From assembly GCA_037042915.1 (NCBI GenBank), contig CM073197.1:2294001-2358000 (forward strand): a stretch of 64,000 nt of DNA. The letters are read 5' to 3'. Made by a program: the position numbers and the translations under genes. The notes under the pieces are model-generated. The model worked only from the letters and a program-made list of their open reading frames with translations. It did no database searches and was not told the DNA's origin. Below are positions 24,701 to 28,726 of the stretch, one piece after another; positions within the stretch are counted from its first letter, which is position 1; every line of letters starts with the position of its first letter. The DNA is from Auricularia sp. M13. Lineage: Eukaryota > Basidiomycota > Agaricomycetes > Auriculariales > Auriculariaceae.

Positions 24701-27700
24701 ATGTGGGCTCGCCGCTGCGCACGGCTTGGAGCGCGACGTTCGCGCTCGCTGGCAACGGTATCGGCCCAGCTGCCGGATAAGGACTGCGCTTCGGTCACGC
24801 CGGACTATGCAACGCTCATCGACCGCGCTGCGCGCGCAAAACGCGTTCTGGGCGGCAGACCGCTTGCTCTGGCCGAGAAAATTTTGTACAGTCACTTGAG
24901 CGATATCGAGGGATGCCTAGAGGGCGCAGGACGCGTCCGCGGAGAGGCTTACCTTCGCCTGAATCCAGCGCGGGTGGCCATGCAGGATGCTTCTGCACAG
25001 TGCGTGCCGTGCTAATGCTGTTGCTATTGCGAGCTCGTCGCTGACTATACGACGGCTGCAGAATGGCTCTGTAGGTCTGTTGGATATATGCGTGCCGTCT
25101 GCTGAGCCCGTCAAGTCTTCAGTTCATGACATGTGGGATGCCGGCGACTGCAGTGGTGCGCATGCTTGTATATCTTCGTCCCCCCGTTACTGACGCCGTG
25201 CCCGTTCAGCCAACCAGCATTCACTGTGACCACCTGATTCAAGCGGTGGAAGGAGCCAAAGCAGATCTCGAGGTTCGGTGCACATTGTGCCGGTATTGAA
25301 CATACGAAACTCAGACCGTCCCGCGCAGCGCTCAATCGTCACGAACCAAGAGGTTTTCGACTTCTTGGAGAGCGCCGCTCGCAAATATGGCATTGAATTC
25401 TGGAAGCCGGGCAGCGGGATCATCCACCAAATCGTATTGGAGAACTATGCCGCGCCTGGGATGCTCATGTATGCTGCACGAGCTTGCTCTGCATGCTCTC
25501 ACTGACATTGCCATCTAGGCTGGGAACAGGTAGATATGTCTATCGCGTCGAGCCAGCATGTCTCAATCGCACATAGACTCGCATACACCCAACGCGGGAG
25601 GACTGGGTTTACTCGCAATTGGCGTCGGTGGCGCAGATTGGTGTGTCCAGCCGGCGGCCACCGCACGTTCCCGATTGCATCCGTGACAAGTCCTCCGCAA
25701 CGTCGAAAGACGTCCCAGCTCTTTTCCACAGATTCTCTAGCAGTCAGACATACACAGAATCCTTGAAAATAGTTTAAATATACTGAATATGCGCAGAAAT
25801 TGGCGATTCCACAAGTCTCATTTGTGCCCATCTTCAGCACAAATCTGTGAATAACCTTCCAGAAACACAGTATGAGGCCCTCATACTTTGTTATCATAGT
25901 GCCTTATGCTACATTAACAAAGGATGGGCCCCAGAACCGCGATATTCTGACGGATATACTTATCCGGATAACCCAGAAAGCAAAAATCGTCCCAGATACT
26001 GAGACCGAGACATCGTGCTCCAGATAGTACACCTAGCAATTGTAGCGATTCCCTTTCGCTGTCATCTCCGAGAGTAATCAGAGGTTTAGCTCTCGTCCTG
26101 GGGGTTTAATTCGAGTCGGGAAACCTGCCCGCAGGAAACAGCCGAAAACGTTTACATCCGATTGAATGGCGGCTGGACAGACCACGCAGATGCTGTGGAT
26201 GCAATGACCGGCACTGCGTGGGAACTCAAGGCGCCGCAAGTTGTTGGTATGTGTCGGGACGCGTTATCATTGGTTGAATGCTCATGCTTGTAGGTGTCAA
26301 ACTCACGGGCAAACTGAATGGCTGGGCGACGGCAAAAGATCTCATTCTCCATCTTGCTGGGAAACTCACTGTTCGCGTACGTGAATAGGTTAATTTTGTG
26401 GCGAAGATTTCTGAGCAATGCTATAGGGAGGAACGGGACGCATTATTGAGTACTTTGGTCCTGGTGTCTCCGACCAGTCGTGTACTGGTATGCATGTTCT
26501 TCCTAAGTTGTCCCCGCTGGAACTTAGCGCCGCTAGGCTTGGCCACTGTTTGCAATATGGGTGCGGAGGTAAGTGCCCATGGCTATCTACCCATCTACTG
26601 CTGACAGAGTGCAAAGGTCGGTGCGACAACTTCGATCTTCCCGTACACCCCCGCGATGCGCGCATACCTGCAAGCCACGCGCCGCGGACCGGTTGCGCGT
26701 GCCGCAGATGCCGCTGCGGCGCAAGGTTTCTTACAGGCAGACGAAGGCGTCGAGTACGATGAGGTCATCGAGATTGTGAGTGCACGCGTCTGTGCCCGTC
26801 AAGCATATGCTCATCGTGGGCAGAACCTGTCCGAACTAGAACCGACGCTCAATGGGCCCTTCACACCCGATCTTGCCACGCCTATATCTGCCTTTGGCGA
26901 CTTCGTGCGCGAGAAGGGATGGAAAGACGAGATCTCCGCGGCGCTCATTGGGTCATGCACAAATTCCTCTTATGAGGATATGGTACGGACAATTTACTGT
27001 GATAAGAAACTCTGGCCTGATGTGTTGGTGTAGACTCGAGCTGCAGACCTTGCACGGCAGGCAAAGGAGGCTGGGCTCAAGACCAAGGTTGATATTCTTC
27101 TGGAATAAGGCGGCAACTCTCATGCCGTTTAAGGTTCCGTTTCTTTGCACGCCAGGATCTGAGCAGATCCGCGCGACCATGGAAAGAGACGGCGTCATTG
27201 GTGCCCTTGAGGACGTTGGTGCTCTAGTACTGGCGAATGCTTGCGGACCCTGCATCGGGCAGGTCAGTCATACGTCCAGTGTGGCTCTGTGGGTCTAACT
27301 GCTTCTGGTAGTGGAAGCGAGAGACATCCGGCGAGGAGAATGGTATGCTGCCTTGTTACAGTACGCCTAGGATCAGTGCTAATGCTTGGATAGCAATTGT
27401 GTCCTCGTTTAACCGGTGCGCGGGACGAATGTCAGAATACCAACTAGATTGTCTTACTGGACCCTGTAGGAACTTCAAAGCGCGGAACGATGGCTCTAGC
27501 AAGACTATGAACTTCCTCGCCTCTCCGACTGTCGTCACCGCCATGGCATTCAGTGGTCGCCTCTCGTTTGATCCTGCTAAGGATGTCATTCCCGACAAGG
27601 ATGGGAAACCGTTCAAGTTTGCGCCTCCTGCCGGCGAGCAGCTTCCGTCCGCGGGATATGCTCTTGGTTTGTCTGTTTTCCCTCGACTGTTTCTGCCTTT

Positions 27701-28726
27701 TGACGGACGATTGCACAGGGAATCCGGATTACTACCCCGCGCCGACACCTCAGCCCCAGCCCGACGTCGAAGTCGTCATCTCGCCCACTTCGGAACGCTT
27801 GGAGCGTCTAGAGCCGTTCGAGTCGCTATTTGGACCCCAGAATGCCAATGCACCGGAGTTGCCTGCGCTCAAGGTCCTTTTGCGCGTCCGAGGGAAATGC
27901 ACTACAGATCATATTTCTGCTGCTGTATGTGCTGGAGTCGTAGCGATATCCCATATGTCGGCTCATGTGTTCGCAGGGGCCATGGTTGAAGTACAAAGGC
28001 CATCTTAGCAACATTTCCCAGAATCTCTGTGAGTATTTACTATGGAACATTCTTTCAGAAGACCGCCGAGCTGACCTGCTGGCAGTGATAACAGTGCGTG
28101 ACACTGCCCGCGCCGGATATTTGCTCAATTTTGCGTTAGGCCGTGAACGACGAGGGAGGTGAGGTAAACGTTGCGGCGGATCCTGACCACGACATCGACG
28201 AATCCTCGACGGACACAATCCCGCGCATCGCGCAGCGCTTCAAGCGCCGTGGCGAACCCTGGGCGTTGGTCGTCGACGAGAACTACGGCGAGGGCAGCGC
28301 GCGCGAGCATGCGGCTCTCCAGCCGCGGTTCTACGGCTGCGCGCTCATCATCGGGCGGTCGTTTGCACGGATTCACGAGACGAATCTCAAGGCACGTCCT
28401 AATGATCATTCTATACGGCTGTCGTCTCGTCAATTTGCTGACGTGAGTCTACTATGCAGAAACAAGGCATCCTGCCTCTCTGGTTTGCCGACAAGGCGGA
28501 CTACGGCCGCATCGGGGCGTCGGACATCGTCGAGACGGTCAACCTCAAGGACGTGTTCGACGGGAAGCTCGACACGCCGGTCAGGCTGCGCGTGACGAAG
28601 AGGGACAGCGGCGAGGTGTTCGAGGTCGTTACACGGCACACGCTGTCTGCTGATCAGGTCCGGTGGCTGGAGGCCGGATCGGCCCTCAATGCTATCCGTG
28701 CGCAAAAGGCGCACTCGAGCAGCTGA
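24701..28726 (+). CDS. ACO2: Mitochondrial aconitase paralogue (ACO2-type), exon interrupted by a transposon
   Basis: This belongs to the aconitase superfamily. ACO2-type proteins dehydrate homocitrate in fungal lysine synthesis, while ACO1 serves the citrate cycle; the ACO2 label is inferred. The start [20 protein letters not shown] is a transit peptide. Conserved blocks are [44 protein letters not shown] and [25 protein letters not shown] and [11 protein letters not shown] supply the three cluster cysteines, and [32 protein letters not shown] and [15 protein letters not shown] complete the fold. Around 18 exons are needed. One exon is split between GGA and D/AVDAM by a 546-bp element at 25639-26184. 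Apart from that, the exons I joined show no break. Confidence 0.85.
25632..25638 (+). repeat. Target-site duplication, left copy
   Basis: CGCAGAT, identical to the right copy at 26185-26191. The reading frame here is GCA GAT (Ala-Asp). Confidence 0.85.
25639..26184. mobile_element. 546-bp MITE (non-autonomous DNA transposon) inside an aconitase exon
   Basis: The left end TGGTGTGTCCAGCCG and the reverse complement of the right end TGGTCTGTCCAGCCG match at 14 of 15 positions, forming terminal inverted repeats. The element is flanked by exact 7-bp copies of CGCAGAT (25632-25638 and 26185-26191). Removing the element and one copy restores VGGADAVDAM of aconitase precisely. It has no coding capacity and looks more AT-rich than its host exon. 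The family is unassigned; a 7-bp duplication suits few well-known groups. Confidence 0.88.
26185..26191 (+). repeat. Target-site duplication, right copy
   Basis: CGCAGAT immediately after the element. It contains a possible 3' splice site (CGCAG|AT). Confidence 0.85.

Follow-up and report, generated by a model that had tools for sequence, protein, structure and literature searches.

The window analysed here is a 64,000-nucleotide stretch of contig C5 of the Auricularia sp. M13 genome, all 14 contigs of which (52 Mb) formed the scope of the genome searches. It contains a mitochondrial-type aconitase gene on the forward strand at positions 24701-28726, which was modelled manually on the basis of homology and splice motifs. 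Besides the element described below, the gene has 21 ordinary introns of 45-68 nt, 20 of them with GT-AG borders and one with GC-AG borders; this sole GC-donor intron lies at 28392-28459. With the element and one copy of its target duplication removed, the aconitase frame is open over 796 amino acids and the model aligns end to end with fungal aconitases. The top match among the 120 listed is the aconitate hydratase of Exidia glandulosa (90% over 98% of the query), followed by that of an Auriculariales isolate (80%). A paralogous aconitase is located on contig C7, with 44-72% identity by segment. Fungal aconitases are reported to have a role in lysine biosynthesis (PMC3556520).

The exon at 25577-26246 (forward strand, element included), which is flanked by introns at 25530-25576 and 26247-26293, is interrupted by a 546-bp non-autonomous DNA transposon (MITE) at 25639-26184, also on the forward strand. 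The element sits between exact 7-bp target duplications, CGCAGAT, at 25632-25638 and 26185-26191, and ends in terminal inverted repeats (TIRs) at 25639-25653 (forward strand, TGGTGTGTCCAGCCG) and 26170-26184 (reverse strand); when TGGTGTGTCCAGCCG is compared with the reverse complement of the right end, TGGTCTGTCCAGCCG, 14 of 15 bases match. The lone mismatch falls at 26180, where the aconitase copy has a base unseen in the other copies, one of 43 differences private to it, and this base creates a CAG at 26178-26180. These boundaries, which the initial annotation had proposed from the window alone, are not a product of chance, as four other full-length 546-bp copies with the same ends are present in the genome. 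An Rfam scan of 25500-26300 gave no match.

The insertion site lies within the motif GVGGADAVD, which is unbroken in each of the 120 homologues listed (out of 7,999 scored) and also in a mitochondrial aconitase of known structure, PDB 1aco; together with the rebuilt gene, this bears out the proposal that the transposon splits a conserved aconitase exon. Neither the annotated Exidia protein nor any of the 120 listed homologues contains the element. In a model spliced such that two element-derived residues, Trp-Tyr, are retained, the columns of these residues are the only ones filled by at most one of the 120 listed homologues. A second protein search with the first 340 residues of this Trp-Tyr version again listed 120 proteins, of which 112 match the pattern GGAD..D, with an insertion in none, and eight do not match the pattern. 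Its top match, P0121, is an aconitase in which a stretch is internally duplicated, not a close relative.

The remainder of the gene is undamaged. The aconitase deviates at 17 of 450 columns conserved among the listed homologues, for which the median is 3, and the Exidia aconitase has 18 deviations at 444 conserved columns. Since 15 of the 17 deviations are identical in Exidia, they represent a trait of the lineage and not decay of the gene; one of the two that are not identical is a Pro to Ala change in GTAWELK, just after the insertion. The undamaged gene and the Exidia-like deviation count indicate that selection acted on the aconitase until recently, or still does. A recent insertion explains this intactness as well as a working gene does.

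Splice sites and the fate of the reading frame

The best explanation of the locus, and a probable one, is that a recent MITE insertion disrupts this aconitase allele; the most likely reading is thus of a recent exonic insertion in a conserved metabolic gene. A short cut-and-paste element would have entered the coding exon, probably recently, duplicating 7 bp of its target, and larger elements that have related ends would probably have provided the transposase in trans. The element would then mostly be retained in the transcript, or be spliced from a strong donor, GTGTGT. The unspliced frame reaches a stop after residue 223, in agreement with the earlier expectation that an unspliced reading soon stops. 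Either outcome cuts the frame short at the insertion or shortly beyond it, which most likely leaves the allele null or with strongly reduced function; an intact allele in a second nucleus, or the paralogue on C7, probably sustains the organism.

The relative strength of the splice sites was assessed with score matrices built on the aconitase gene alone (20 GT donors, 21 acceptors), which serve as a rough guide, and each real donor was left out in turn when scored. Real GT donors score 1.2-8.6 and real acceptors 1.5-8.2. The in-frame donor GTGTCC (25643-25648, forward strand), which the initial annotation had already called not ideal, scores -1.3, below all 20 GT donors. Two bases upstream, and overlapping it, the donor-like GTGTGT (25641-25646, forward strand) scores 8.7, above all 20, and joining it to an acceptor at 26180 or 26189 yields GAT TGA, an immediate stop. 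On the acceptor side, CCACGCAG, which ends at 26189 with the CGCAG of the right target duplication, scores 6.5, and the CAG in the right inverted repeat (26178-26180, forward strand) scores 4.5.

The foremost alternative, which is considered unlikely, is that the element is a newborn intron, that is, a DNA transposon with TIRs and target site duplications (TSDs) that is becoming a basidiomycete intron. It would be spliced from GTGTCC either to CGCAG, adding Trp-Tyr, or to the private CAG in the TIR, adding 15 nt and thus five residues, and the aconitase would be at least partly made and stay partly functional. Consistent with this notion, in-frame products free of stops exist: the splice 25643..26189, described earlier as in phase and giving GGADWYAVDAM, was reproduced on the rebuilt gene model. 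In addition, the acceptor is good, the rest of the gene shows no sign of relaxed constraint, and the CAG at 26178-26180 is found in the aconitase copy alone. On the other hand, the donor is weaker than every real GT donor of the gene and is overlapped by a much stronger one that is out of frame, the insertion breaks an otherwise unbroken motif, and the in-phase geometry is to be expected at about half of all sites, as the following control indicates. Low-level productive splicing, as in a partly spliced newborn intron, is possible but would depend on the weaker of the two overlapping donors.

In this control, insertion of the element was simulated at 1,890 coding sites of the aconitase gene. 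With the usual right end of the family, an in-frame, stop-free pair of TIR donor and duplication acceptor arose at 938/1,890 sites (49.6%), which makes an in-phase outcome about as likely as not, and unremarkable; with the element reversed, such a pair arose at 797/1,890 (42.2%). Restricting the control to GTGTGT left 192/1,890 sites (10.2%), and the actual aconitase site has no GTGTGT solution. GTGTCC combined with the CAG at 26180 leaves 15 nt, 8 from the element and 7 from the duplication, in frame at all 1,890 sites; this CAG is the most interesting detail of the locus, but depends on the weak donor GTGTCC.

A scan of splice pairs with donors at 25580-25759 and acceptors up to 26245 returned 24 in-frame, stop-free pairs, of which one uses GTGTGT, with an acceptor scoring -7.0. 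The pair GTGTCC/26189 ranks sixth by summed score, and the five higher pairs use exon donors scoring at most 1.3. Joined to 26189, the exon donor at 25607, whose score of 1.3 barely exceeds that of the weakest real donor, would give an in-frame product that is 10 residues shorter. A CTRAY branch-point motif is absent within 200 nt of the element's acceptor, and the nearest YTNAY in the element is 35 nt from the acceptor. Among the ordinary introns, YTNAY occurs at 9-18 nt in 15/21, only at 33 nt in one, and not at all in five. At 546 bp, the element is also far longer than the 45-68 nt of the other introns of the gene.

The initial annotation had concluded that either the gene is broken or a new intron has been born. 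The broken gene fits better; the new intron is left unsupported, with the strong donor leading to TGA. The points counted against disruption are the undamaged rest of the gene, the good acceptor CGCAG, the available in-frame splice and the possible in-frame product via exon donor 25607, together with a donor matrix that stems from 20 sites of one gene, the 5/21 ordinary introns that have no YTNAY, and the post hoc choice of limits in the comparison of element ends and interior given below. The locus is a clean test case, since a strong donor and a weak one, set two bases apart within a single inverted repeat, decide between loss of the frame and a two-residue insertion.

The element family and a candidate transposase

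A genome search with the element gave 25 matches, including itself, which were grouped in a tally of our own. Five are full-length copies (the aconitase copy and four more), one lacks the first 15 bp, two have deletions, one of these also lacking the left end, five rows are fragments of the same family (family 1), and 12 rows are the right ends of a cousin family. The 15-bp end occurs at 17 places in the genome with at most one mismatch, 15 of them, again by our own tally, in family copies or in a fragment on contig C3, and the 15-bp ends are identical in L025, L026, L028 and L031. Exact 7-bp duplications flank 4/6 family 1 copies that have both ends, and none were found at L026 and L027. In the right flank of L027, TGAGA precedes ATCTCAG, and at L026, CCAG stands before TGTTCC, in both cases as if a few bases had been added beside a duplication. 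The longest stop-to-stop frames span 71-88 amino acids per full-length copy and the frames differ between copies, indicating that family 1 has no transposase of its own.

Six-frame Pfam scans of the flanks of the seven other copies, ~1.2 kb to either side, placed none of them (0/7) inside a coding exon or where an exon meets an intron, a result confined to Pfam context, in which genes without domains would be missed. Pfam domains lie near 4/7 of these copies: a deaminase-like domain ~300 bp from L025, a phosphotransferase domain that ends ~150 bp before L026, a hydrolase whose start is ~500 bp beyond L029, and, ~315 bp from L031 on the opposite strand, a match to a Ras GTPase. The L031 element is on the 5' side of this match and could lie within the 5' part of the Ras GTPase gene. 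In the same flanks, L028 and L030 have Pfam matches only below the cut-off and L027 has none. Coding-potential scores of the empty sites from a frame-aware Markov model were discarded, as the aconitase exon itself scored near zero. The initial annotation had suggested searching for further copies and asking whether they lie at exon-intron borders; such copies exist, and the Pfam context of their flanks placed none at a border. Its comparison of the insertion to the behaviour of introner-like elements is not supported, considering also the poor donor and the unremarkable phase.

In its short length, TIRs, duplication of constant length, several copies and lack of a conserved long ORF, the element resembles MITEs, as it does in the presence of larger coding elements with related ends. 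It differs from MITEs in its low copy number here (five full-length copies, three damaged ones and some fragments).

The cousin family has 12 loci, with two copies of 546 bp, seven of 547, one of 541, one of 1,281 and one of 3,580 bp. Leaving aside the 3,580-bp copy, exact 7-bp duplications are present at 9/11; L039 matches at 6/7 bases and L046 has none. Eight compared copies are 97-99% identical, and L036 and L037 form a second group that differs from them, at ~90%. A subterminal stretch, TTTACATCCGATTGAATGGCG, is common to both families and occurs at 20 places with at most two mismatches. The interiors of the two families (L025-L029 and L036-L047) are largely unalike, yet both are 546 (or 547) bp long. 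The 1,281-bp cousin copy (L042:3247-4527) contains additional internal sequence with long inverted symmetry, which may be a nested insertion.

The 3,580-bp element (L038:4483-8062, on G000:C8) carries one of the matches to TTTACATCCGATTGAATGGCG, ends that resemble both families and a 959-aa ORF; its flanking duplication matches at 5/7 bases. Three homologues of the encoded protein were found, one in Auricularia subglabra at 71% and two, in Mycena and Roridomyces, at 31%. None of these four proteins has a Pfam match at the curated cut-off, the three homologues, used as a profile against solved structures, had a single match, with an E of 0.54, and the structure predicted for homologue P0243 from three sequences was unusable (mean pLDDT 42.7). 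Relatives of the 959-aa protein occur at at least 10 further loci of the M13 genome, a lower bound from our own grouping of 28 exon-level rows, and several have long open frames. One such relative lies in a large element at C2:1613941-1617721, whose 22-bp inverted ends are identical and whose flanking duplications match at 6/7 bases. The proteins encoded by the large elements measure 950-990 amino acids. The 959-aa protein is a likely source of transposase and may move family 1. A large element linked to the MITE encodes a transposase-like protein without a Pfam counterpart, and the proteins of the large elements are a candidate for an undescribed transposase family.

According to PMC12730594, 7-bp target duplications are described for the hAT7 and Kyakuja DNA transposons of basidiomycetes, a likeness to the present element, which has 7-bp duplications in a basidiomycete. 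Unlike the element, Kyakuja have CA..TG ends and no TIRs according to the same paper. Because the candidate transposase has no Pfam match above the curated cut-off, membership in hAT7 or Kyakuja is unsupported.

Age of the insertion and comparison with introners

The aconitase copy is 86-88% identical to the other full-length copies, which are 91-94% identical to each other (alignment including 12-bp flanks), and is thus the outlier of the family. This is the reason that an old insertion was considered, namely an established intron of transposon origin in which splicing constraint has held the outer sequence. The private differences of the aconitase copy number 3 in the 136 bp of its ends versus 40 in the 410 bp of its interior. 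However, the ends are conserved across the whole family, with 11 variable sites in 136 bp versus 99 in 410 bp, and not in the aconitase copy alone, and the length is constant among full-length copies that diverge by 6-14%. The exact target duplication and the absence from Exidia and the listed homologues likewise speak against great age. The notion was abandoned on the conservation of ends and length, and appears very unlikely. Since the end limits (80 + 56 bp) were set after viewing a block profile, the p = 0.003 for the contrast between ends and interior is post hoc; the first limits (107 + 75 bp) gave a weaker contrast of 11/182 versus 32/364.

Two of the private differences (element positions 486 and 492) are also present in the cousin copy L036 and are, therefore, probably ancestral. 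The conserved ends and the lack of insertions or deletions suggest that most of the divergence of the aconitase copy predates its insertion, and this divergence may be read as having arisen in an active source lineage beforehand, which would be consistent with a recent arrival in the aconitase exon. An assembly or sequencing artefact is barely credible: the insertion is seen in one assembly only, but the element is complete, with matching ends and an exact target duplication, and no other copy is more than 88% identical, as the source of a miscopied stretch would have to be.

The element is like introners in having TIRs and a duplication, where the TIR offers a potential donor and the duplication an acceptor. 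In the survey PMC9860276, many similar introns were required for an introner, introners with TIRs and TSDs are described, and ascomycete introner families have neither feature. Of the groups with introners, 7/8 are aquatic according to this survey, in which the word Basidiomycota is absent. Aureococcus introners add 12 bp to the transcript according to the same survey, compared with the 6 or 15 nt predicted here. Unlike introners (PMC9860276, PMC4457414), the element has a poor in-frame donor and no known set of intronic copies. A literature search of titles and abstract openings found no report of TIR/TSD introners in Basidiomycota. If it were spliced, the insertion would be a recent intron from a TIR/TSD DNA transposon in this group.

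Elsewhere in the genome, a motif, TGGTAAGTCCAAAC, recurs at ~1.15-kb steps at G000:C7:3857915-3876356, C10:3643829-3647301 and C13:453-9300. The matches on C10 are less than 5 kb from the contig end, those on C13 start 453 bp after the contig start, and this repeat is likely a satellite. At G000:C1:659413-709583, a motif occurs six times at ~10-kb steps, perhaps as part of a tandem 10-kb unit such as rDNA.
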